Shown here piece after piece: positions 4,140 to 31,318 of a DNA stretch of 32,083 nucleotides (positions are counted from its first letter, which is position 1; each line of letters opens with the position of its first letter). The position numbers and the translations under genes were made by a program. This DNA is from Candidatus Amesbacteria bacterium GW2011_GWA1_47_20 (lineage in GTDB: Bacteria; Patescibacteriota; Microgenomatia; CAZETR01; Amesbacteraceae), in assembly GCA_001002405.1 (NCBI GenBank), contig LCOA01000003.1, positions 1 through 32,083 of the forward strand, in the 5' to 3' direction. The notes under the pieces were generated by a model, which was given only the letters and a program-made list of their open reading frames with translations, was not told where the DNA came from and did not search any database.

Positions 4140-5646
4140 GCTGCCGTTTGTGAACTTGTCCAAGCTGGATATCCCCGAAGAAGTGTTTAATGTTATTCCG
4201 GACCGGGTGACCAGGAGACAAAAGATAGTAGTTTTTGCCAGAGACGCCGGGGGAGTAAAAGTGGCGGTGGCGGATCCGGCGACTAGCCGGCCGGTTTTGG
4301 AGATGGTAGCAAAGAAAACCGGGCAAAAGGTGCTGCCGCATTTGGCGACTCTGCGGGATATCCAAATCGCCCTGCGGGTATATCAGGGTGATGTGCAAAA
4401 ATTGGTAGACAACTTGCTGGCCGAAGATATTGGGAGGACAGCCGAAGCTGTCCTGGAAGATCCGCCGGTAGCCAGAATTGTGGACGCGATTATCGAAACG
4501 GCATATCAGAACCGGGCCTCTGATATTCATATTGAACCAGAAGAGTCTGGTTGTTTGGTGAGATATAGAATTGACGGAGTGTTGCAGGATGTGCTGCATG
4601 TACCCAAACGCCTGCATGACCGGTTGATGACCAGGATTAAGGTGCTCTCTAGTCTGCGGACGGATGAACACATGGCGGCCCAAGACGGGAAAATGCGGGT
4701 GAAGTTGGAAGAAGAACACCTGGACATTAGGGTGTCCATACTGCCGATTGCAGACGGAGAAAAAGCGGTGTTGCGACTGCTGTCTAGTAGATCCCGGCAG
4801 TATACTTTGCACGATCTGGGTATGAGCGAGGCGGATCTGGCTAAATTGACCCGGGCTTTTACTAAGTCATACGGAGCTATTCTGTGCACCGGGCCCACGG
4901 GGTCGGGAAAGACGACGACGATCTATGCTATTTTGAAAATTATTAATTCCCGGGAGAAGAACATTACAACTATCGAAGACCCGGTAGAATACCGCATCCG
5001 GGGAGCGAATCAAATTCAGGTTAACCCCAAAACTAATCTGACTTTTGCTTCGGGGTTGCGGTCAATTTTGCGGCAGGACCCGAATGTGATCTTTGTGGGT
5101 GAAATCCGGGATGGGGAGACGGCGGGCATTGCCGTAAACGCGGCTCTGACAGGACATTTGGTGTTGTCCACGCTGCACACCAATGATGCAGCCACCGCTA
5201 TCCCGAGGCTGATAGACATGAAAGTGGAACCATTTTTGGTGGCGTCGACGGTGTCGGTAATACTGGCGCAACGGCTGGTACGGCAAATTTGCCCGGCGTG
5301 TAAGTATGAAATGGAAATAACGGCTGAAGAAGTGACTAAGAGTTTTCCGCCTGAGGTGGTTAAGGAGAACTGGGGGGCAAAAAATAAATATCCAGTATTT
5401 AAAGGCAAGGGATGTAAAATATGCCGGCTGTCGGGATATTCGGGACGGGTGGGGTTGTTCGAGGTGCTGGAAGTGACGGCGGAAATCAGAAAGTTGATTA
5501 CCCAAAAAGCGGACGCGGACGTGATCGCCAAAGCGGCCACGAAAGAGGGGATGAAGACCATCCTGGGGGACGGATTTGCCAAAATTGCGGCTGGGGTTAC
5601 GACGGTGGAAGAAGTCCTGCGGGTAACCAAGTCGGAATTGGTATGA
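4093..5646 (+). CDS. pilB: Type IV pilus assembly ATPase PilB
   Basis: Walker A GPTGSGKTTTIYAIL, IEDPVEYRI, RSILRQDPNVIFVGEIRD, TGHLVLSTLHTND, CPACK...GKGCKICRLSGYSGRVGLFE. Confidence 0.96.
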   Translation: MVTDEQLGQALAANFKLPFVNLSKLDIPEEVFNVIPDRVTRRQKIVVFARDAGGVKVAVADPATSRPVLEMVAKKTGQKVLPHLATLRDIQIALRVYQGDVQKLVDNLLAEDIGRTAEAVLEDPPVARIVDAIIETAYQNRASDIHIEPEESGCLVRYRIDGVLQDVLHVPKRLHDRLMTRIKVLSSLRTDEHMAAQDGKMRVKLEEEHLDIRVSILPIADGEKAVLRLLSSRSRQYTLHDLGMSEADLAKLTRAFTKSYGAILCTGPTGSGKTTTIYAILKIINSREKNITTIEDPVEYRIRGANQIQVNPKTNLTFASGLRSILRQDPNVIFVGEIRDGETAGIAVNAALTGHLVLSTLHTNDAATAIPRLIDMKVEPFLVASTVSVILAQRLVRQICPACKYEMEITAEEVTKSFPPEVVKENWGAKNKYPVFKGKGCKICRLSGYSGRVGLFEVLEVTAEIRKLITQKADADVIAKAATKEGMKTILGDGFAKIAAGVTTVEEVLRVTKSELV

Positions 5647-6683
5647 CCACTCTTTCGAACTCGGAAAAGCTGTCGATCTTGAGAAATCTGGGGATCATGT
5701 TGGGGTCGGGCATTCCTCTGGCTGAGGCGGTAGAGTCGCTTCTGGAAGACACTAAAGGCAACCAACGGAAAGTACTTTTGAATTTGAGAGCAGATTTGCA
5801 GCAGGGTACGCAAATTTCGGAGTCATTTGCGAGTTATCCCAGAGTGTTTGACAAAGTGACTCTCAATCTGATTAAGGCCGCGGAGGAAGCGGGAACGCTA
5901 GAGACAACTCTAAAAGACCTGCAGGAACATATTCAAAAAGAGATTGAATTTACAGATAAGGTGAAGTTTGCCATGATTTATCCGGGACTGATTATGGCCT
6001 TGTTTGCCGGAGTGTTGCTCATGATTTTGACGGTGGTGGTGCCGCGGATTTCGGGAGTGTTTTCCCGGTTGCGGGTGGAGCTGCCGTTACCTACCAAAGT
6101 ACTAATTTGGGCGTCAAACTTACTTTTGCAAAATACGGCTCTAATCATTGTGGGAGTGGTAGTAGTAGTTGGGGGCGCACTTCTTTTGTATCGCATGCGA
6201 AGGCAATGGGTGTTGGCGTTGTTTTTTGGATTGCCGGGAATATCTGGCCTAGTACGGCAAATTGATTGGACTAGATTTAGCCGTAGCTTGTATCAACTGT
6301 TGTCTTCGGGGTTGCCGATTACTGTAGCCTTGGAACTGGCTGGAGATGTAGTGATGGATAGGCGAATAGCCAAGTTGATAGCCCGGTGCCGGGAGATGGT
6401 GATTGCCGGAAAGAAAGTGTCGGATGGATTGCGCATGGGTAAAAAAATAGTGCCGAATATGATGATCAAATTGGTAGAGGCAGGAGAAAGAACGGGGACA
6501 TTGGATAAATCGATGCAGGAGATCTCCGAACATCTAGATTATGAAGTGGGTAATTCACTAAAGGCCGCGACGGCACTTTTGGAACCGGTGCTTTTGGTGA
6601 TCGTGGGGATATCGGTGGGGGGAATGATGCTGGCGATTATCGCTCCCATTTACGGACTGATAGGTCAAGTGGGTGGTAGGTAG
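5643..6683 (+). CDS. pilC: Type IV pilus inner-membrane platform protein PilC
   Basis: ATGA overlap with pilB; two T2SSF-like repeats (LRNLGIMLGSGIPLAEAVES; LYQLLSSGLPITVALELAGD), GERTGTLDKSMQEISEHLDYEV. Confidence 0.93.
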   Translation: MTTLSNSEKLSILRNLGIMLGSGIPLAEAVESLLEDTKGNQRKVLLNLRADLQQGTQISESFASYPRVFDKVTLNLIKAAEEAGTLETTLKDLQEHIQKEIEFTDKVKFAMIYPGLIMALFAGVLLMILTVVVPRISGVFSRLRVELPLPTKVLIWASNLLLQNTALIIVGVVVVVGGALLLYRMRRQWVLALFFGLPGISGLVRQIDWTRFSRSLYQLLSSGLPITVALELAGDVVMDRRIAKLIARCREMVIAGKKVSDGLRMGKKIVPNMMIKLVEAGERTGTLDKSMQEISEHLDYEVGNSLKAATALLEPVLLVIVGISVGGMMLAIIAPIYGLIGQVGGR

Positions 6684-6690
6684 TAGAGAC

Positions 6691-6777
6691 ATTTACAACG
6701 ATCCATGCTATAGGCCCGAAGGCATATATGAATAAGGCCTTCGTGCCTTATTGCATATAGCGTAAGATGGTGTAAAT
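6691..6777. repeat. 87-bp imperfect palindromic element, copy A
   Basis: ATTTACAAC...GCTATAGGCCCGAAGGCATATATGAATAAGGCCTTCGTGCCTTATTGCATATAGCGTAAG...GTGTAAAT; ends pair with each other; near-identical core in inverted orientation at 13153-13239. Confidence 0.88.
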
Positions 6778-7357
6778 GATGAAGCAAAAGACGAAGCGAA
6801 AATTGAGAGTGGGGGTGATAACGATTCTGAAGATGCTGGATAGATATGCGGATTGGTTGGTAGTTCCGTCTAAATACGAATCATATCGAAGACTGAAACA
6901 AGGTTTTAATTTCGATGTGGAGGATGAGTTTTGGAAAGAGTACTATGCCAGTAGCGTTAAAGATGGAGTCGAAAGATTGTTGCGTAAGGGGAGGATCGAA
7001 ATGCGGGAAGTGGATGGGAAAACGGAGGTACGGATTACTGATAAAGGAAAAACGGAGATTATCAGGGGAAGTCTTGATGAGTTGGGTATTACTAAGCCGT
7101 CAACGTGGGACGGGAAATGGCGGATGGTATTTTTTGATGTAGACGAATTAAATAAGAGCCGGCGGGACGGATTAAGTAGATGGCTAAAAAAGTTAGGGCT
7201 GAGAAGAATGCAGAGAAGCGTATACGTATACCCGTACCCTTTAGAAAAAGAGATAAGTTTTCTGCGTGAGGTTTTGGGGGTGCCGCATGGAGTGAAGCTG
7301 GTGACGGCGGAAAAAATCGAAAACGATGAGGACTTGAGAGAAATATTCGATTTGTAA
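6776..7357 (+). CDS. PaaX-C/Cas2-like fold protein (solo; putative regulator or Cas2-like protein)
   Basis: N-terminal winged-helix-like region, then GKWRMVFFDVDELNKSRRDGLSRWLKKLGLRRMQRSVYVYPYPLEKEISFLREVLGV, as in PaaX C-terminal / Cas2-like proteins. Confidence 0.7.
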   Translation: MMKQKTKRKLRVGVITILKMLDRYADWLVVPSKYESYRRLKQGFNFDVEDEFWKEYYASSVKDGVERLLRKGRIEMREVDGKTEVRITDKGKTEIIRGSLDELGITKPSTWDGKWRMVFFDVDELNKSRRDGLSRWLKKLGLRRMQRSVYVYPYPLEKEISFLREVLGVPHGVKLVTAEKIENDEDLREIFDL

Positions 7358-7396
7358 TTTTACGACAAAGTACGCTATAGCGTAGGTTGGTGTAAT
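7358..7396. repeat. Short palindromic element, copy B
   Basis: TTTTACGACAAAGTACGCTATAGCGTAGGTTGGTGTAAT: perfect 14-bp palindrome TACGCTATAGCGTA plus outer arms like copies A/C, directly after the PaaX/Cas2-like stop. Confidence 0.8.
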
Positions 7397-7432
7397 GGGT
7401 GGGATCTGGTAGATTAGATATAGGAAGCAGAT

Positions 7433-7810
7433 ATGAAGCGAGGATTTACATTGATTGAAATGATTGTGGTGATGGCTATTGGAGCGGTGGTGATTACGGC
7501 CACCACCGTAAATTTGTTGGGTGGCCAGCGGCGGGTAGCTAAATTATCGGGAGTGGAACAGCTGGTAGCAGATATCCGGACGGCGCAAGTAAAGACCATG
7601 ATGGGGGCCGGGGCGGGGGTAATTGATTTGGCGGCGGTGGATTTGGATAACAATTTGACCGTGAGTTCCAGTTATCCGGACAACACCATTACACTTACTC
7701 CGATTTCTGGGGAAACAGAGGCGGGGACGGTGACATTGACGGATGATACAGACGGAACTGTTAAAACGTTATATATCAATGTCTATGGCGTGGTTACCCA
7801 AGTTGACTAA
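7433..7810 (+). CDS. Prepilin / pseudopilin
   Basis: MKRGFTLIEMIVVMAIGAVVITATTVNLLGGQRR: class III prepilin signal. Confidence 0.85.
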   Translation: MKRGFTLIEMIVVMAIGAVVITATTVNLLGGQRRVAKLSGVEQLVADIRTAQVKTMMGAGAGVIDLAAVDLDNNLTVSSSYPDNTITLTPISGETEAGTVTLTDDTDGTVKTLYINVYGVVTQVD

Positions 7811-11411: not shown

Positions 11412-11855
11412 ATGAGGAAGGCTTTTACGCTGATCGAACTGCTGGTAGTGATTGGGGTGTTGTCCGTACTTTTGGTAATTACACTGGTGGCTATTAATCC
11501 AGCTCGGCAGTTTTCATTGGCCAACAATACGAAGCGGCAGAGCGATGTGAACTCGATTCTGAACGCAGTCCATCAATATGCGGCTGATAACAAAGGAAGA
11601 TTGCCAGCTGGGATCACAGATGTGGTACAGGCTATTTCTACCGGAGCAGCAGATGTGTGCTCAGATTTAGTAACTGACTATTTGGCTGCGCTGCCTGTAG
11701 ACCCATTGACCAACAACGGAGCTTCGATAACCGATTGTGCAGCGGTAGGTGGGTATACTACTGGATATACGGTGGTCAAAAGCGCGACCAATAATCGGGT
11801 GACGGTGGCAGCTCCTGACGCAGAATTAAGCCAAGTGATATCGGTGATGCGCTAA
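11412..11855 (+). CDS. Type IV prepilin / pseudopilin (GspG-like)
   Basis: MRKAFTLIELLVVIGVLSVLLVITLVAINPARQFSLANNTKRQSDVNSILNAVHQY. Confidence 0.9.
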   Translation: MRKAFTLIELLVVIGVLSVLLVITLVAINPARQFSLANNTKRQSDVNSILNAVHQYAADNKGRLPAGITDVVQAISTGAADVCSDLVTDYLAALPVDPLTNNGASITDCAAVGGYTTGYTVVKSATNNRVTVAAPDAELSQVISVMR

Positions 11856-11876
11856 AGCCCCTGGTATAATAGACAT

Positions 11877-12278
11877 ATGCAGGATTGTATTTTTTGTAAG
11901 GTTGTGGCGGGGGAGGTACCGGCAGAAAAGGTGTGGGAAGATGAAAAATACTTGGCGATTTTGGATATCAACCCATATCGTGAAGGGCAAACATTAGTGA
12001 TGCCGAAGGCCCATTGGGACTCGTATGTGTTTGATATGCCGGAGGGGGAAATGGCGGGTTTGTATTTGGCAGCTAGAAAAGTGGCTAAAACGTTGGACAA
12101 GACATTGGGGACGCTGCGGACTTGTCAGCTGATGGAGGGTTTGGGGGTAAATCATGCCCATATAAAGTTGTATCCTACCCGTCCAAACGAGATGCAGGAG
12201 GGGTTGGTACCACTAGGGAGGAAAGCAGAGACGTTAAAGTTAGTGGAAATTGCTAAAAAAATAAGAGGGGAGGGGTGA
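11877..12278 (+). CDS. HIT family hydrolase
   Basis: MQDCIFCKVVAGEVPAEKVWEDEKYLAILDINPYREGQTLVMPKAHWDS...; C-terminal HAHIKLYP. Confidence 0.92.
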   Translation: MQDCIFCKVVAGEVPAEKVWEDEKYLAILDINPYREGQTLVMPKAHWDSYVFDMPEGEMAGLYLAARKVAKTLDKTLGTLRTCQLMEGLGVNHAHIKLYPTRPNEMQEGLVPLGRKAETLKLVEIAKKIRGEG

Positions 12279-12482: not shown

Positions 12483-12891
12483 GGCTGATTTAACAGTAGC
12501 CATGAAATCAGGAGATGCCCTGAAGGTGTCTGTTTTGCGAATGCTGATCAGCGCCTTGGGATACAAACAGATAGATGTACAGCGCGACTTGACGGACGAG
12601 GACGTAGTGGTGGTGGTGCAAAATGAGGCCAAGAAACGCCGGGAGGCCATCGAATCGTTTGAGAAAGCCGGACGAGTGGAATCGGCGACCAAGGAGAAAC
12701 GGGAGCTGGAAATTTTACAAGCATATATGCCAAAACTTATGAGCGAGGAAGAAGTTCTGGCTGAACTGTCCAAGATGGATTTGCCTAAAGATTTTGGGCA
12801 AGCAATGAGAGTTGCCGCCCCATTGTTTAAAGGAAAAGCAGACGGAAGTTTAGTAGCTAGGCTAGTCAATGAAAAAATTAGCCAATCCTAG
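12460..12891 (+). CDS. yqeY: GatB/YqeY domain protein
   Basis: MSNADRIKADLTVAMKSGDALKVSVLRMLISALGYKQID...LQAYMPKLMSEEEV. Confidence 0.9.
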   Translation: MSNADRIKADLTVAMKSGDALKVSVLRMLISALGYKQIDVQRDLTDEDVVVVVQNEAKKRREAIESFEKAGRVESATKEKRELEILQAYMPKLMSEEEVLAELSKMDLPKDFGQAMRVAAPLFKGKADGSLVARLVNEKISQS

Positions 12892-13153
12892 TGTCGTAGA
12901 GAAAACAGTTAGGGAGCACGGAATAATGGGGAAATACGAAGTTGGAGTGTACCAGGCAAGTGAAGATGAGGTGAAGAAATTGTGGGATGGCCAGCCGCAC
13001 AATGTACTGTCGTTTCCACTGGAACTGGATAAAACATACCCTGACGGGGTGATTCGCTTGGGGGATATTGTGGTGTGCAAGACAGACATAGAACGGTTTG
13101 AATCTTTGGTCGAACACGCCTGCCTGCATCTCCTGGGCATTCACCACAACTAA
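12869..13153 (+). CDS. ybeY: YbeY-like endoribonuclease (reduced)
   Basis: NVLSFPLE...LGDIVVCKTDIE...LVEHACLHLLGIHHN, variant of the YbeY HGxLHLxGYDH motif. Confidence 0.78.
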   Translation: MKKLANPSVVEKTVREHGIMGKYEVGVYQASEDEVKKLWDGQPHNVLSFPLELDKTYPDGVIRLGDIVVCKTDIERFESLVEHACLHLLGIHHN

Positions 13154-13239
13154 TTTACAACAGCTTACGCTATATGCAATAAGGCACGAAGACCTTATTC
13201 ATATATACCTTCGGGCCTATAGCGGAGAGTGTCGTAAAT
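13153..13239. repeat. 87-bp imperfect palindromic element, copy C (inverted relative to A)
   Basis: Reverse complement ATTTACGAC...GCTATAGGCCCGAAGGTATATATGAATAAGGTCTTCGTGCCTTATTGCATATAGCGTAAG...GTAAAT; differs from copy A mainly in the outer flanks. Confidence 0.88.
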
Positions 13240-13276: not shown

Positions 13277-14398
13277 ATGCCGGGAGATGAAGTGCGCCCA
13301 GAGAGTATTTGGGAAAAGTTGGGCATTAATCCTAGGAGTTCGAGAGGGAGGTTTTTAGTGTGGGCTCCTGCAGCGTTGGTTGGTTTGGCACTGGAAGTAA
13401 GGGAGTTAAGTAAGGCCATCATGAGGGGGGAGGCGTTAGTGCCTGAGGTGGAGGTTACAGAAAGGATGGAGGAAAATGTGGCGGTTGAGGGAGCCAATTT
13501 GCTGGAGGTTTTAGGTCAAAAGTGGAGTATTGGGATTAACAAGCAGGCATTGTTAGAAATGGCCCTGAAAGTGTCGGAAATCGAGGGAGGGCCAGCATTG
13601 GCCGGTAAGGTGGGGAAGTGGCTGGAACAAAATAAATGGAGAGTTTTCATTTCTCCCCTTCAAGGGGGGCTCATTTCTTCTATTTTTGGTTACCCGTACT
13701 TGGACGTAGGTTCTCTGGAGGCGAATGAGATGATAGTTGTTAAAGCGAGGGAGAAGGTGATGGGTGAAGCTTTAGAAGTACCAGAGTCGTTGATTGATGG
13801 TAAGTCGGGGTACGTTCTGGCAAGATATGGAGTTTTTTTCCATCCTGTAGATACCGTGGATGATGTACCGGCGGTAATGATTAATGCTGGAGTAGTATGG
13901 TTTGCGTTTCTCCAGAAGTGCTTAGATGGAAAAGTTGGAGAGTTCCCCGCAGTGTTGCTTTCAGAGACGGGCCATTTATTAAAATGGGGTGAAGACACCT
14001 TGGCTCATGAGTTATGGCATATGGTGCGGTGGATAAACAACCCTGAAAGAGAGGACTATTTAGCCTCTGATGGAGCTGGTGGGTATAAAGTTATGCCGGT
14101 AAAGGAGAGAGATTTGGTGGAAGATGCCGGATGGGAATATGCAGAGTCGACAGCAGCTGCCTTTCTGGGGGCCCTGACTGGAAAAGCGGCTAGTCGTGGT
14201 GATGGAAACAACTTGAAGCGGTTGGCGAGGGGAATAGCGACTTTTCTTGTTTCCAAGCAACTACTTGATCCAGTTCATGAACCATACGCGAGGACAGGTC
14301 ATCCTGAAAGAGAAAGAAGTAGGGTTGAGGACGCTTTTGCGAAAGATCTACACGCCAAGGAGTTGTTTTCAAATGTGTTCACTTTTAGGAGAGTTTGA
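13277..14398 (+). CDS. Putative zincin-type metallopeptidase-like protein, unknown family
   Basis: 373-aa ORF with HELWH (HExxH) in DTLAHELWHMVRW, followed by EDAGWEYAESTAAAF; TAGAAT upstream of ATG. Confidence 0.6.
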   Translation: MPGDEVRPESIWEKLGINPRSSRGRFLVWAPAALVGLALEVRELSKAIMRGEALVPEVEVTERMEENVAVEGANLLEVLGQKWSIGINKQALLEMALKVSEIEGGPALAGKVGKWLEQNKWRVFISPLQGGLISSIFGYPYLDVGSLEANEMIVVKAREKVMGEALEVPESLIDGKSGYVLARYGVFFHPVDTVDDVPAVMINAGVVWFAFLQKCLDGKVGEFPAVLLSETGHLLKWGEDTLAHELWHMVRWINNPEREDYLASDGAGGYKVMPVKERDLVEDAGWEYAESTAAAFLGALTGKAASRGDGNNLKRLARGIATFLVSKQLLDPVHEPYARTGHPERERSRVEDAFAKDLHAKELFSNVFTFRRV

Positions 14399-14460: not shown

Positions 14461-15825
14461 GTGTCGCAGACGTTGTATTTGAAGTACCGGCCGCAAAAAA
14501 TTTCCGAACTGGATTTGGTATCGGCCAGAGAGATGCTGGAAAAAGTGTTAAAGGGCAAGAGCTTGCCTCACGCGTGGCTGTTTTCGGGACCGAGGGGGAC
14601 AGGGAAGACGTCGGCGGCGCGGATTCTGGCTAAGGAGGTCAACGGCAATGACAAAGACTTAAATTTAGAGATTGAAGTGGGAACGTGTACGGACGTAATT
14701 GAGATTGATGCGGCTTCAAATCGGGGCATTGATGAGATCCGGGAGTTGCGCGACAAAATTAAACTGGCGCCTATGCGAGCCAAGTACAAGGTATACATCG
14801 TAGACGAAGTACATATGTTGACTACGGAAGCGGCTAACGCACTTCTCAAGACCTTGGAAGAGCCGCCAGCGCACGCTATCTTCGTGCTGTGCACGACAGA
14901 CCCAGAAAAGCTGCCGGAAACGGTAATTTCCCGGTGCACCCGGGTGCAGTTTAAGCGGCCGACAATTGCCGAAATTGTGGCGAAATTAAAGATTGTGGCG
15001 AAGGGAGAGCAGGAGAGTATAAGAGTAGAAGAGCTGGAGATGATTGCCAAGGCGGCCAGAGGAAGTTTTCGGGATGCGATTAAAATTTTGGAACAAGTGA
15101 TACTATCTGACAAACCAGTGAAAGAGGTGCTGGGGTTGTTGGAATTTGCCGAACCCAGGACACTAATTGAACTGATTAAGACAAATGAAACGAAGAAGGC
15201 GTTGGAATTTATAAATAATTTTGTGGCGGAGGGGGTGGCCCCAAGAGAATTTATTGAAAGAGCAGTAGAGGAGCTGCGGGAGCAATTGCTGGAAACTATG
15301 GACAAGTCCCTGCTGCCGCTGATTGAAGGGCTGGAAAGGGCCTACGAGAGGACAAAAACAAGTGCAGTGCCGCAGTTGCCCCTGGAAATATTTGTGATAG
15401 AAAATTCTAAGCACGAAACTCTAAATCCGAAACAAGAGGATCCGAAACCAGTAAAGCATGGCTCAGGGAAAGGAAAATTTAAGCTGGAGGATGTGCAGGT
15501 GAGATGGGCGGATGTATTAAAGACGGTTAGGCCCCATAACCACTCTGTGGAGGCTTTGCTGCGATCTACGCGGCCGACTGATTATGATGGGGATACGCTG
15601 ACGCTGGAGGTATTTTATAAATTTCATAAAGATAAATTGGAAACAGATAAATGCCGGCAGATTGTGGGGCTGGCAGTGGGAGAGGTGTTTGGAACAGATC
15701 CGGCGAGATTGATTTTGCAGTTGGGACAGAGACTGCAGCCGGCGAAGGAGGAAGTGGTGGCAGACAGCGTGGATGAAGATTTAGTGGCGGCAGCGGCGGA
15801 GATATTTAAAGTGGAAGCGGTGTAG
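14461..15825 (+). CDS. dnaX: DNA polymerase III subunit gamma/tau
   Basis: GTG start; LYLKYRPQKISEL, GPRGTGKTSAARILAKEVN, DVIEIDAASNRGIDEIRELRD, KVYIVDEVHMLTTEAANALLKTLEEPP, TVISRCTRVQF. Confidence 0.95.
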   Translation: MSQTLYLKYRPQKISELDLVSAREMLEKVLKGKSLPHAWLFSGPRGTGKTSAARILAKEVNGNDKDLNLEIEVGTCTDVIEIDAASNRGIDEIRELRDKIKLAPMRAKYKVYIVDEVHMLTTEAANALLKTLEEPPAHAIFVLCTTDPEKLPETVISRCTRVQFKRPTIAEIVAKLKIVAKGEQESIRVEELEMIAKAARGSFRDAIKILEQVILSDKPVKEVLGLLEFAEPRTLIELIKTNETKKALEFINNFVAEGVAPREFIERAVEELREQLLETMDKSLLPLIEGLERAYERTKTSAVPQLPLEIFVIENSKHETLNPKQEDPKPVKHGSGKGKFKLEDVQVRWADVLKTVRPHNHSVEALLRSTRPTDYDGDTLTLEVFYKFHKDKLETDKCRQIVGLAVGEVFGTDPARLILQLGQRLQPAKEEVVADSVDEDLVAAAAEIFKVEAV

Positions 15826-17703: not shown

Positions 17704-18106
17704 TTACAACAGATTTGGGGACCAGGGAATGGAAAAAATGGAGAAGGGCGTGGCGGCTGCGGCTAAACCGGTAGTCAAAACAGCGGAGGAAATGTTTAAG
17801 GATGCGGTGCAATCCTTGACGGGGAATTATGGAAAGCCGATCGAGCAATCTGGGCAACCAGAACAGATTAAGCAGGATGAGGCCAAACGACTGCAGGTGG
17901 CTAGGGCCAGGTTGGCGCAGATAAACAAAGAGATAGTAGAGGCGAGAAAGAAAAGAGAAGAGCGGGAGAGCAGGAGAGTGGAAGAGCCGGAGAAGAAGCA
18001 GGAGCAGAAGAAAGTGGTGGAGAAGAAGGAAAAAGAATCGGTGCTGGCAAAGATGATAAAATCAAGACAAGGAAGCAAGGAGGCAATGCAACGTGCCAGC
18101 GGATAA
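17693..18106 (+). CDS. Coiled-coil protein, unknown
   Basis: Starts within recR 3' end; long charged helix KREERESRRVEEPEKKQEQKKVVEKKEKES. Confidence 0.6.
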   Translation: MSTNYNRFGDQGMEKMEKGVAAAAKPVVKTAEEMFKDAVQSLTGNYGKPIEQSGQPEQIKQDEAKRLQVARARLAQINKEIVEARKKREERESRRVEEPEKKQEQKKVVEKKEKESVLAKMIKSRQGSKEAMQRASG

Positions 18107-18272: not shown

Positions 18273-18308
18273 TTTATCAAATACGCGCTATAGCGTATTT
18301 TTGATAAA
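18273..18308. repeat. Palindromic element, copy D, sharing the CGCTATAGCG core
   Basis: TTTATCAAATACGCGCTATAGCGTATTTTTGATAAA, between small ORF stop and cysS; arms differ from A-C. Confidence 0.7.
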
Positions 18309-18342: not shown

Positions 18343-19758
18343 ATGAAATTGTTTAATTCGCTGACGAGAGAAGTCGGGGAGTTTGTGCCGTTGAAAAAGG
18401 GCAAAGTGGGAATGTATACCTGCGGACCGACGGTGTATGACTATGTGCATGTGGGTAATTTCAGAACTTACATGACTGCGGATTTGTTGGTGCGGCTATT
18501 GAGATACAACGGTTATGAAGTGAAGTATGTGATGAACATCACAGATGTGGGACATTTGACGGGAGATAACCTGGGAGACGCGGATTTGGGGCGTGATAGG
18601 ATTGAGGAGTCGGCGAGAAAGATGGGCAAGACTGCTCATGAGATAGCCGGGTTTTACACACGGCAGTTTTTGGATGATCTGGATAGTTTGGGTTTGCAGA
18701 GACCGGACGTGTTGTGCAAGGCGACCGATCATATAGCCGAGCAAATTGAGCTGGTAAAAAAGTTAGAAGAAAAAGGATTTGCCTACCGGATTTCGGATGG
18801 GATTTATTTCGATACGCGCAAGTTTCCTAGGTATGGAGAGCTGTCTACCCTGCGGGAAACTGCTGGGGCGGCCAGAGTGGAGGTAAATCCGGAAAAGAGA
18901 AATCCAAAGGATTTTGCTTTGTGGAAATTTTCGCCAAAGAATGAGAAGAGACAGATGGAGTGGGATAGTCCGTGGGGAGTGGGGTTTCCGGGGTGGCATA
19001 TTGAGTGTTCGGCCATGTCTATGAAATATCTGGGAGAATCATTTGATATTCATGCGGGTGGGGAGGATTTGCAGTCAACTCATCATCCTAACGAGATTGC
19101 TCAGAGCGAAGCGGTGACGGCGAAACCTTTTGTGAGGTATTGGGTACACGGAGCGTTTTTACTGGTGGATGGCGGGAGGATGAGCAAGAGTCTGGGAAAC
19201 AATTACACAGTAACCGACCTTGATGGTAAAGGTTTTGGGCCTATGGCTTTAAGATATTTATACTTGACGGCTAATTACCGGACGCCGTTAAATTTTACCT
19301 GGAGCAGTTTGGCGGCTGCCCAAAGTGCGTATGACAAACTCGCCGAGTTTGTTAGGAGCAGGAGAGCAGGAGAGCAGGAGAGCAGGAGAGAATTATCCAA
19401 AGAGAAATTGAAGAAGATTGATCAGTTTAGAACCAGATTTTTGGAAGCGGTGAATAATGATTTGAATTTCCCCCAGGGCCTGGCGGTGGTATGGGAGATG
19501 GTAAAAAGCAATATTCCGGATATGGATAAAGCCGATCTGATTTTGGATTGGGATCAGATTCTGGGGTTGGGACTGGCTAATGCCCAGGAGGGGGTTAAGG
19601 TGCCGGATGTAGTAACTAAGTTGGTGGGCGAAAGAGAGAGCTTGCGCAAGGCGGGAAAGTTTGTGGAGGGGGATAAGGCGAGAATGCAAATTGAGGCTCT
19701 GGGCTTTATAGTTAAAGATACGCCCACCGGGCCGATAATCAATGTCAAAAGAAGTTAA
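18343..19758 (+). CDS. cysS: Cysteinyl-tRNA synthetase
   Basis: MYTCGPTVYDYVHVGNFRTYMTADLLVRLLRYNGYEVKYVMNITDVGH; GWHIECSAMSMKYLG; HHPNEIAQSEA; GGRMSKSLGNNYT (KMSKS-like). Confidence 0.96.
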   Translation: MKLFNSLTREVGEFVPLKKGKVGMYTCGPTVYDYVHVGNFRTYMTADLLVRLLRYNGYEVKYVMNITDVGHLTGDNLGDADLGRDRIEESARKMGKTAHEIAGFYTRQFLDDLDSLGLQRPDVLCKATDHIAEQIELVKKLEEKGFAYRISDGIYFDTRKFPRYGELSTLRETAGAARVEVNPEKRNPKDFALWKFSPKNEKRQMEWDSPWGVGFPGWHIECSAMSMKYLGESFDIHAGGEDLQSTHHPNEIAQSEAVTAKPFVRYWVHGAFLLVDGGRMSKSLGNNYTVTDLDGKGFGPMALRYLYLTANYRTPLNFTWSSLAAAQSAYDKLAEFVRSRRAGEQESRRELSKEKLKKIDQFRTRFLEAVNNDLNFPQGLAVVWEMVKSNIPDMDKADLILDWDQILGLGLANAQEGVKVPDVVTKLVGERESLRKAGKFVEGDKARMQIEALGFIVKDTPTGPIINVKRS

Positions 19759-22749: not shown

Positions 22750-23373
22750 ATGCCTGCGAAGAAAGACAAAGTAAGTGAGGAAGTAATTACCGAAGTGGAG
22801 GTGGAGGAACCTGCAGAGGCGAAGCCGATTTTGGAGCCACAGGTAGTGGAGGCTCCTCCGACGGTAGAACCTGTGAAGGAAGACGTGCCGCCAGCGGTGC
22901 AGGTGGTTTCCGAAGAGCCCAAAAAGGAGAATGGGTGGTTGTGGATATTGGTGGCTTTTGTATTGGGGGCTTTGGTAGGAACTGTCTCTGGATATTTAGT
23001 TGCGAAAACTCAAAAACTCCAAAACGCAAAAACTCAAACTACTGTGGCACAGACCAGTCCCACCCCTTCTCCCAGTCCTGCCACTGACGTTAAAAGGGCA
23101 GATTTGAAAGTCCAGGTATTGAATGGGAGTGGAGTTGCGGGAGCCGCGGCTAAGGCCAAAACTATGTTGGAAGGATTGGGCTATGTGGATGTGGCAGCGG
23201 GTAATGCCGACGGTGATTTTGCCGAAACGGAAATTGCCGTTAAAGACGGCCAGACGGCGGTGTATGAACTAGTGAAGAAAGACGTTGAGGACGAATATAC
23301 CTTGGCTACGGAAGCGGCGAGTCTGGATGCGGATTCAGATTATGATGCGGTGATCACCCTGGGGGCGGAGTAA
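22750..23373 (+). CDS. Membrane-anchored protein with LytR_C-like domain
   Basis: TM WLWILVAFVLGALVGTVSGYLVA, PSPSP linker, LKVQVLNGSGVAGAAAKAKTMLEGLGYVDVAAG...DAVITLG. Confidence 0.75.
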   Translation: MPAKKDKVSEEVITEVEVEEPAEAKPILEPQVVEAPPTVEPVKEDVPPAVQVVSEEPKKENGWLWILVAFVLGALVGTVSGYLVAKTQKLQNAKTQTTVAQTSPTPSPSPATDVKRADLKVQVLNGSGVAGAAAKAKTMLEGLGYVDVAAGNADGDFAETEIAVKDGQTAVYELVKKDVEDEYTLATEAASLDADSDYDAVITLGAE

Positions 23374-27122: not shown

Positions 27123-28006
27123 AGACACTAGTCAGACTTGCCGTAGCTATACTTGTTATTGGGGCGGTTTTCGGCGGAGCGGTGGGAGACAGAATCTGGG
27201 GATACAAAATACTGGATAAATATTGGCCTAGATTAAAAACTCAAGAACTCCAAAACTCAAAAACTCAAATTGTGACGGAGGAGAATGTGGTAATTGAGGT
27301 GGCGGAAAAAGTAAGCCCAAGCGTGGTCACGGTGGGGATTAAAAAAACCCAGATATTTAGGGAGATTGACCCGTTTGATTTTTTTGGAATGGGGAGAATA
27401 CAGCAGAAGAAGGTCGAGCAAGACATCGGGACCGGATTTATTTTGACGGAAGACGGGTTGGTGGTGACGAATAAACACGTAGTTGGGGATACGCAAGCGA
27501 CTTACAAGATTGTAACTAAAGATGACAAGACATATGAGGTGCAGAAGATTTATCGGGATCCGGCCAATGATTTGGCGATTTTGAAAGTTGACGCCAAAGA
27601 ATTGAAACCTGTTGAGTTGGGAGATTCCAGCAAGCTTAAAGTGGGGCAGATGGTGATAGCCATCGGAACTGCTTTGGGTGAATTTAGACATACAGTTACC
27701 ACCGGAGTTGTATCCGGCTTGGGAAGGGGAATTACTGCTGGTAGCCCGCTGGAGGGAGCTGTAGAGCGGCTGGATAACGTGATTCAGACGGATGCGGCAA
27801 TTAACCCAGGGAATTCGGGAGGACCATTACTTAACTCCTCGGGTCAGGTGATCGGAGTAAATACTGCTATTTCTCCGGAAGGACAGAATATCGGATTTGC
27901 CATTCCTATTAACGTCATAAAGGACGCGATTGATAACTTTAATAAAACCGGCCAATTTAGCCGACCATATTTGGGGGTGCGGTACAGAATAAAACCGCGC
28001 TATTAA
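27119..28006 (+). CDS. DegP/HtrA-like serine protease, protease domain
   Basis: TGFILTEDGLVVTNKHVV, NDLAILKVD, GNSGGPLLNSSGQVIGVNTAI. Confidence 0.92.
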   Translation: MKTLVRLAVAILVIGAVFGGAVGDRIWGYKILDKYWPRLKTQELQNSKTQIVTEENVVIEVAEKVSPSVVTVGIKKTQIFREIDPFDFFGMGRIQQKKVEQDIGTGFILTEDGLVVTNKHVVGDTQATYKIVTKDDKTYEVQKIYRDPANDLAILKVDAKELKPVELGDSSKLKVGQMVIAIGTALGEFRHTVTTGVVSGLGRGITAGSPLEGAVERLDNVIQTDAAINPGNSGGPLLNSSGQVIGVNTAISPEGQNIGFAIPINVIKDAIDNFNKTGQFSRPYLGVRYRIKPRY

Positions 28007-30149: not shown

Positions 30150-31318
30150 TTTTGCTCTCCGGTGGCCATGTTTTTAACTTTGACTTCGTTCTGGGCGGCT
30201 TCTTCCGGGCCGATGATAGCGACGTAGGGGATACCTTTGGCATTGGCGTATTTGAGCTGTTTGTCGAGTTTGGCGGAAGCGTCTGGATAGAGTTCGGTGT
30301 TGATGCCGGCGTCGCGCAGAGAGCTGGAGAGGATAAGAGCAGGAGAGTATAAGTCTTGAGAAAAAATTGTGACTAGAATTTTGGTAGCAGATTTGGGTAG
30401 ATCTGGCCAGAGAGTGAGCTCTTCGATGACATCACAGATGCGGTCCAGCCCCAGAGTCGTGCCAACCGCGGGCAGGTCAGGACCGCCCAAGGACTTGATC
30501 AAGTTATCGTAGCGGCCGCCGCCGGTAATGGAGCCAATCTTAGGTTCGGTAACCATAGTTTCAAAAATTACTCCGGTGTAATAATCCAGACCGCGCACCA
30601 AACGGGGGTCGAATTCAATATTTCTGGCCCCCAGTTTTTCGGCAATGTCCATAATTTGGGTTAGATTGGGGTCCGGTTTGGCCGAATCGAGACCGGCAAA
30701 AATGTTTTGGATTTCGTCCGGAGACAGGCCTTTTTGTGACAGCTCCTGTTTGACTTCGTTGGCAGATTTCTTGTCTAACTTGTCAATTGACTGTAGGACA
30801 GATAAATCCTTGGTTATGCCAAAGAGAATTTGCCGAGAGTTGACCCGAATTTTGAATTCTTTAAAACCAAGGCCAGTGAGAGCATCAGAGATAATGGCTA
30901 AAATTTCGGCGTCGGCTAGTGGGGAAAGAGTGCCAACTGTGTCTACGTCACATTGATATAATTCGCGATACCGACTTTTTTGGGTATTTTCGGCTCTGAA
31001 GGCCGGCTGGATTTGATACCGCTTGAAGGGTTTGGGAAGGTCGGGATATTGGGCCATGACTCGGGCCAGAGGTACGGTCATGTCATATTTAAGTCCAACT
31101 TTTCGGCCACCTGGATCCTGAAAAAGATACATCAACTTTTCGGCTTCCTGACCGTATTTGCCGGTGAGAACTTCGGCGTATTCTAGAGTGGGTGTTTGCA
31201 GCTCTGAAAACCCATATTTTTCAAAGACGGTTTTGAGGATATTTATGACCCGCGAACGGACTGCCATTGTTTCAGGCAAAAAATCCCGAAAGCCTTTTAA
31301 TGTTTGGATGGTTGACAT
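30110..31318 (-). CDS. hisS: Histidyl-tRNA synthetase
   Basis: LKGFRDFLPETM, FGFSELQTPTLEY-type motif 1, RYQIQPAFRAENTQKSRYREL motif 2, RGLDYYTGVIFE, GGGRYDNL motif 3. Confidence 0.96.
   Translation of the reverse strand: MSTIQTLKGFRDFLPETMAVRSRVINILKTVFEKYGFSELQTPTLEYAEVLTGKYGQEAEKLMYLFQDPGGRKVGLKYDMTVPLARVMAQYPDLPKPFKRYQIQPAFRAENTQKSRYRELYQCDVDTVGTLSPLADAEILAIISDALTGLGFKEFKIRVNSRQILFGITKDLSVLQSIDKLDKKSANEVKQELSQKGLSPDEIQNIFAGLDSAKPDPNLTQIMDIAEKLGARNIEFDPRLVRGLDYYTGVIFETMVTEPKIGSITGGGRYDNLIKSLGGPDLPAVGTTLGLDRICDVIEELTLWPDLPKSATKILVTIFSQDLYSPALILSSSLRDAGINTELYPDASAKLDKQLKYANAKGIPYVAIIGPEEAAQNEVKVKNMATGEQKCLPEQELISFFS

Follow-up and report, generated by a model that had tools for sequence, protein, structure and literature searches.

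Organization of the locus

The window analyzed here is the whole 32,083-nucleotide stretch (contig LCOA01000003.1, positions 1 to 32,083) of Candidatus Amesbacteria bacterium GW2011_GWA1_47_20, a genome referred to as G000 where it is compared with others. It contains related copies of a palindromic repeat at the pilC gene and after ybeY, as well as a further palindrome between two genes, in the following arrangement:

5421–6683, forward strand: pilC (T2SSF, Pfam), upstream neighbour of the unit
6684–7432, forward strand: unit-bearing segment from the pilC stop to the pilin start, empty in 11/11 family relatives
6691–6777, forward strand: upstream palindrome of the pilC unit, with the same nested insert as the solo copy (sequence comparison)
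6713–6755, forward strand: 43-nt nested insert of the upstream palindrome, 41/43 identical to 13175–13217
6776–7357, forward strand: P0001, 193 aa, N-terminal winged helix and Cas2-like ferredoxin domain (PaaX_M), candidate nuclease binding the palindrome, and candidate mobiliser (Pfam, structure model)
7358–7396, forward strand: short-form palindrome on the downstream side of the unit (TTTTACGACAAAGTACGCTATAGCGTAGGTTGGTGTAAT; sequence comparison)
7433–7810, forward strand: pilin-like gene (N_methyl, Pfam), downstream neighbour of the unit
12869–13153, forward strand: ybeY (Pfam YbeY, E = 7e-7), upstream neighbour of the solo palindrome
13153–13239, reverse strand: solo member of the 40-bp palindrome family, directly downstream of ybeY, with a hairpin insert nested in it
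13175–13217, reverse strand: 43-nt hairpin insert of the solo copy, nested in its GCTATAGC core (GCTATA-insert-TATAGC)
14461–15825, forward strand: dnaX (Pfam, relatives' loci); in the relative G003 the orthologous unit directly precedes dnaX
18273–18308, no strand assigned: second solo palindrome in the window, between two genes (TTTATCAAATACGCGCTATAGCGTATTTTTGATAAA, GCTATAGC core), conserved in position in the sister species G001

The original prediction described 13153–13239 as an inverted, near-identical copy of the element at 6691–6777 with a conserved centre and diverged flanks. The reverse complement of the former indeed aligns with the latter without gaps over 87 nt (77/87 identical, 89%, E = 6e-27 in a whole-genome search), and only two of the 10 mismatches fall in the central positions 17–76, the remaining eight being located in the outer arms. 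The proposed overlap with the ybeY stop codon amounts to one base shared with the TAA at 13151–13153. A search of the 0.69-Mb, 37-contig genome revealed two full 87-bp copies only. Each of them is a composite: a 40-bp imperfect palindrome in whose GCTATAGC core a 43-bp hairpin and a 4-bp TATA repeat are nested, giving GCTATA, the 43-nt insert and TATAGC where the short forms have GCTATAGC. The 87-bp size is thus due to this second, smaller hairpin. A short third member, overlooked in the original prediction, lies at 7358–7396 and together with 6691–6777 brackets the gene at 6776–7357 almost to the base.

The two long copies are 95% identical in the insert (41/43) and about 82% in the arms, which suggests separate movement of the insert or its later exchange. 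Among the copies compared, it is common to the two long G000 copies and absent from 7358–7396 and from the G001 solo. This confinement shows that sequence passed between the pilC and ybeY loci within the G000 lineage.

The designation of the repeat as a non-autonomous, dispersed, MITE/REP-like element holds with respect to the empty sites and to the solo and intragenic copies described below. It has to be revised with respect to a simple 87-bp MITE, as the repeat is a composite palindrome with a nested hairpin, is low-copy in this genome and corresponds to the terminal palindrome of a unit that includes a PaaX/Cas2-like gene. An ancient pair kept at the same place in all relatives, mentioned along with the original prediction as a possible objection, is at odds with the lack of a palindrome after ybeY in most family relatives and at the pilC site in 11/11 relatives with pilC examined. 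A BLAST search with the 87-mer in 59 relatives produced chance matches only, because the palindromes diverge together with their units. An exact 16-mer scan of viral contigs returned a single match that reads as a tRNA 5' end on the other strand and is unrelated.

P0001 and its protein family

The only Pfam matches of P0001 are to PaaX_M (1e-18) and, weakly, to Cas2 (8e-5). Its NCBIfam scores are 27.8 bits for TIGR02277 (PaaX; cut-off 264.55) and 22.1 bits for cas2 (curated cut-off 24.5). No transposase family was matched in Pfam or NCBIfam, and no viral relatives of the protein were found. The AlphaFold model, of moderate confidence (pLDDT 64, about 80 in the Cas2-like half), combines a helical/winged-helix front with a beta-alpha-beta-beta-alpha-beta Cas2-like back. 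Among known folds it matches E. coli PaaX (8a39) best, followed at lower rank by Cas2 structures, all these fold matches being taken as supportive only.

The Asp that closes the first strand, which we take to be the counterpart of the catalytic Asp of Cas2, is conserved in 62/62 short homologs (160–225 aa). The long homologs have D or E at this position, and Bacillota PaaX has T, S, N or K. The Q-x-S motif (Q-x-S-V, Cas2-like) is also conserved in the short homologs, and an HUH-like motif occurs in 1/62 of them. P0001 is a single-copy gene in this genome. Across genomes the PaaX_M-type family ranges from 0 to 10 copies, with at least one copy in 104/238 genomes of the class and 45/146 of the phylum; the carriers (about a third of the phylum genomes sampled) are mostly near 1 Mb in size.

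Palindromes bracketing the gene

In relatives, the homologs typically have a 36–44-bp imperfect palindrome just 5' of the start codon and a second one just 3' of the stop codon, with a core that is mostly CGATCG, CGGCCG, CGGTCG or CTATAG. The two palindromes of one locus match each other, and palindromes differ between loci: for the 62 short homologs the median upstream-versus-downstream score was 38 in own pairs and 18 in cross pairs, and 46/62 own pairs exceeded the 99th percentile of the cross-pairs (p = 4e-24). About a quarter of the short homologs show no clear pair. At ten further loci across the phylum, own pairs scored above the largest cross score in 4/7 short homologs and 0/3 long ones, and no pairing was detected at the Bacillota PaaX genes (0/8). 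Pairs were present in 52/73 homologs with the Asp and in 0/14 without it (p = 4e-7, an indicative value only, as the sequences are related and so not independent).

The upstream palindromes, located just before the gene start, contain TTGACA-like boxes and overlap a plausible promoter. No T-run accompanies the palindromes, and no shared GTAG-type tetranucleotide was visible by eye in the listed unit palindromes.

Empty sites

In all 11 family relatives whose pilC-pilin junction was read, the two genes are separated by a gap of a few bases at most (e.g. CGCTAATGCTCCGAGG in the sister species G001), compared to 749 bp in this genome. The reciprocal situation was observed for two G001 units without a G000 counterpart, where 704 bp correspond to 20 bp (G000 C18:7392-7412) and 737 bp to none (G000 C10:15762-15766). 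Within another genus, the syntenic DNA of G070 lacks two unit-bearing segments found in G118. All these comparisons are between species, the genomes being mostly fragmented drafts, one per species. Judged by eye at three empty sites compared at the DNA level, the upstream palindrome lies 0–8 bp and the downstream palindrome 33–78 bp from the old flank. The same three sites were read for target-site duplications, for which their flanks (70–80% identical at best) are too diverged.

The ybeY-dnaX interval

An ortholog of P0001 with its own palindromes follows ybeY in G003, G006 and G009. In the tree, P0001 groups with the ybeY-site units of G006, G003 and G009, as well as with G001 C1, and is placed outside a nine-member clade with 100/99 support. 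Given the location of these orthologs and the grouping of P0001 with them, the usual site of the P0001 clade appears, from synteny and phylogeny, to be the one after ybeY. In G000 the gene is located at pilC and the ybeY-dnaX interval contains a solo palindrome; in G001 a short-form solo is located just before dnaX (L134 around 2848-2885).

Between the solo palindrome and dnaX the window contains a Pfam-negative ORF of 373 aa (13277–14398), at a place where the G001 sequence differs; in the relatives examined this ORF is not directly after ybeY. Elsewhere, closely related units are found in two genera next to unlike neighbours (G001 C8:6136-6558, locus L046, and G012 C89:1908-2330, locus L040), a pattern that suggests transfer between lineages.

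Solo palindromes, dispersed and intragenic

G054, a near-complete genome in a single contig and the sole many-unit genome of that quality scanned, has 29 palindromes with a CG[AG][TC]CG core in 800 kb (versus 0.7 in shuffles); its dispersed solos number about 25. The core motif and the thresholds were picked after examples had been seen. In G039, the one gene-free relative scanned (same family as G054, no PaaX_M match), there were 0 palindromes among 18 core sites in the 400 kb of 1.1 Mb covered. The solo population of G000 is small, with five core palindromes of score 7 or more in 642 kb. The G054 solos form families matching resident units: for example, the family GGACAAAC...ACGGCCGT...GTTTGTCC comprises the unit at 567364-567882 and seven solos. 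The solo at 18273–18308 of the window matches a G001 unit (L131 around 11560-12190) that is missing from this genome. Copies within one genome are mutually diverged, with no recent burst visible.

Several G054 solos are located inside genes, in frame and free of stops, as 36-bp (12-codon) segments of the genes for YchF, TatD, ValRS, RecX, an HD-domain protein and a glycosyltransferase (GT4). In 5/6 genes, alignment with the G000 ortholog shows a gap of five or more residues in that ortholog, overlapping the residues encoded by the palindrome; in the sixth, GT4, the gap falls in the second aligned piece. Among the TatD orthologs of family genomes the extra residues occur chiefly in G054 and G241; TatD was ruled out as a clean 12-residue insertion, since the loop length varies across the family.

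Contig C8 of G001 (L128, L129) contains at least six palindromes of the type CTTACAAATCC..ACGACCGT..TTTGTAAG within about 40 kb, a case in which a single palindrome family has expanded locally. Two of these copies bracket a gene of the PaaX/Cas2-like type (L042).

Proposed mechanism and alternatives

The mobility of the palindrome units is well supported by comparative data: paired palindromes, empty sites, a gene clade whose members occupy different loci, solos that are dispersed or lie within genes, and the lack of solos in one gene-free relative. We infer that the P0001-type protein is the mover. The repeat at 13153–13239 is probably a solo, non-autonomous copy of the palindrome that terminates a minimal mobile unit (a single gene between two palindromes), with the winged-helix Cas2-like protein as the probable mobiliser of a REPtron-like but non-HUH system. 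An intact unit of this kind occupies 6691–7396 of the window. According to this scheme, the winged helix of the P0001 dimer would recognise the palindrome. The protein probably represses its own gene, given the position of the upstream palindrome at the promoter. The Cas2-like domain with its invariant Asp would cut the palindrome DNA, allowing either the complete unit or, in trans, a lone palindrome to be transferred or copied to another site, much as REP/TnpA-REP systems do.

The strongest competing explanation, which we nonetheless consider rather unlikely, interprets the palindromes as operators of a PaaX-like transcription regulator that would repress itself via the upstream palindrome and control neighbouring genes via the downstream and solo ones, the gene having spread by ordinary horizontal transfer. 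PaaX proteins are transcription regulators, and the winged-helix/PaaX fold and PaaX-like annotation of P0001, a location of the upstream palindromes that fits an operator, and the conservation of the solo 18273–18308 before the same gene in G001 are all consistent with this role. On the other hand, in most units the stop codon is directly followed by another, matching palindrome, and the in-frame solos inside the YchF, TatD, ValRS, RecX and HD genes are in poor positions for operators. Both features count against a purely regulatory role, albeit not decisively; the empty sites argue in the same direction, as do the Bacillota PaaX homologs, which lack both the palindrome pairs and the Asp. Less credible still would be ordinary MITE/REP repeats moved by an unrelated cellular transposase, with the PaaX/Cas2-like gene being a passenger or a regulator exploiting them. 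MITEs are usually moved in trans (PMC10969869), and target-site duplications may be hidden in the diverged flanks of the empty sites. However, the same gene family is present with locus-specific matching palindromes in every unit examined (the loci having been selected by that gene), and no such palindromes occur in G039, the one gene-free relative scanned.

Two other explanations would account for single features of the units, and we give either of them very little credence. A gene bracketed by imperfect palindromes of 40–87 bp resembles an attC cassette, so that the units could be viewed as integron-like gene cassettes with att-like palindromes and a site-specific recombinase; yet the gene is always of the same family, no cassette arrays were seen, and RYYYAAC/GTTRRRY boxes were not visible by eye in the unit palindromes. 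Immobile transcription terminators or structured RNAs would agree with the good RNA fold of the 87-nt copies (z -5.2), but not with the lack of a T-run, the occurrence of palindromes upstream of the gene and within coding sequences, or the absence of any Rfam match in the window.

Comparison with known systems

The closest parallel to the proposed mobile unit is the REP/TnpA-REP system (RAYT; REPtron, REPIN), which also features a single gene bracketed by imperfect palindromes along with dispersed solos (PMC8266576, PMC3116915). REPs are imperfect palindromes of 20–40 bp that carry a GTAG-type tetranucleotide and whose solo copies are thought to be moved in trans; TnpA-REP is an HUH/Tyr nuclease close to IS200/IS605 transposases (PMC8266576, PMC3116915). 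In contrast, the units described here encode a winged-helix and Cas2-like protein with almost no trace of an HUH-like motif, and their palindromes, in which the tetranucleotide tag was not seen, have a self-complementary core (e.g. CGATCG, CGGCCG or CTATAG). Rickettsia palindromic elements (RPEs) are likewise found in frame inside conserved genes of small-genome bacteria but are 105–150 bp long (reviewed in PMC10969869, PMC2229807). The palindromes of the present family are set apart from the described RPE families by size (36–40 bp), and a candidate mobiliser gene bears the same palindromes. Ordinary MITEs share with them the dispersed, partly intragenic distribution of short gene-free inverted-repeat DNA; unlike MITEs, they are palindromic to the centre and bracket a gene without a transposase match.

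On the protein side, PaaX (PaaX_M, TIGR02277) provides the best structural match, with a winged helix and a Cas2-like central domain. P0001 and the other short homologs differ from it in length (about 300 aa for full-length PaaX), in scores far under the TIGR02277 cut-off, in the palindromes at both ends and in the retention of the Cas2-type Asp and Q-x-S. With the Cas2 nuclease they have in common the ferredoxin-like fold, the Asp closing the first strand and the Q-x-S-V motif, whereas the winged-helix fusion, a score under the cas2 cut-off and a location next to pilC and pilin genes rather than cas genes distinguish P0001. Overall, the palindrome system works like a REPtron and its solos behave like RPEs, yet by the defining tests it is neither of them, because it lacks the HUH motif and any tetranucleotide seen and is much shorter than RPEs.

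The palindrome units may represent a previously undescribed kind of mobile DNA, a view based on a partial search of the literature (the open PMC set, with preprints and most subscription papers outside its scope), in which no account of palindromes associated with a PaaX/Cas2-like gene was found. We propose, tentatively and with somewhat more doubt than for the unit itself, a new class of mobile DNA in which a Cas2-fold winged-helix nuclease would mobilise the gene encoding it, located between paired palindromes, and would also disperse 36–40-bp palindromes that insert in frame into genes. We know of no explanation for the spread of protein-coding palindromes such as those of Rickettsia, and Cas2 is known to us as a Cas1 partner or a stand-alone nuclease, never as a DNA mover. 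If correct, the proposal would identify, for the first time, a mover of RPE-like protein-coding palindromes and would give the Cas2 fold an independent role in moving DNA. As the candidate protein is small and purifiable and its DNA substrate is defined, both the spread of palindromes and the role of Cas2 are amenable to testing at the bench.

Other repeats

Dispersed repeats of G118, G205 and G070 (L109:7560-7700 and 6885-7000) were considered as unit palindromes and rejected, as they belong to other repeat families. The one at L109:7560-7700 in G118 is of the GACTCTTGACTC type, about 70 bp long, with about ten copies in G205, and is unrelated to the palindromes. The window also contains an 8-bp tandem motif (GAGAGCAG-like) at 15005–15044, 17950–17997, 19354–19401 and 30319–30350, and tracts of another 8-bp motif (AAAACTCA/AAAACTCC) at 22997–23046 and 27228–27277, which are in part 94% alike.
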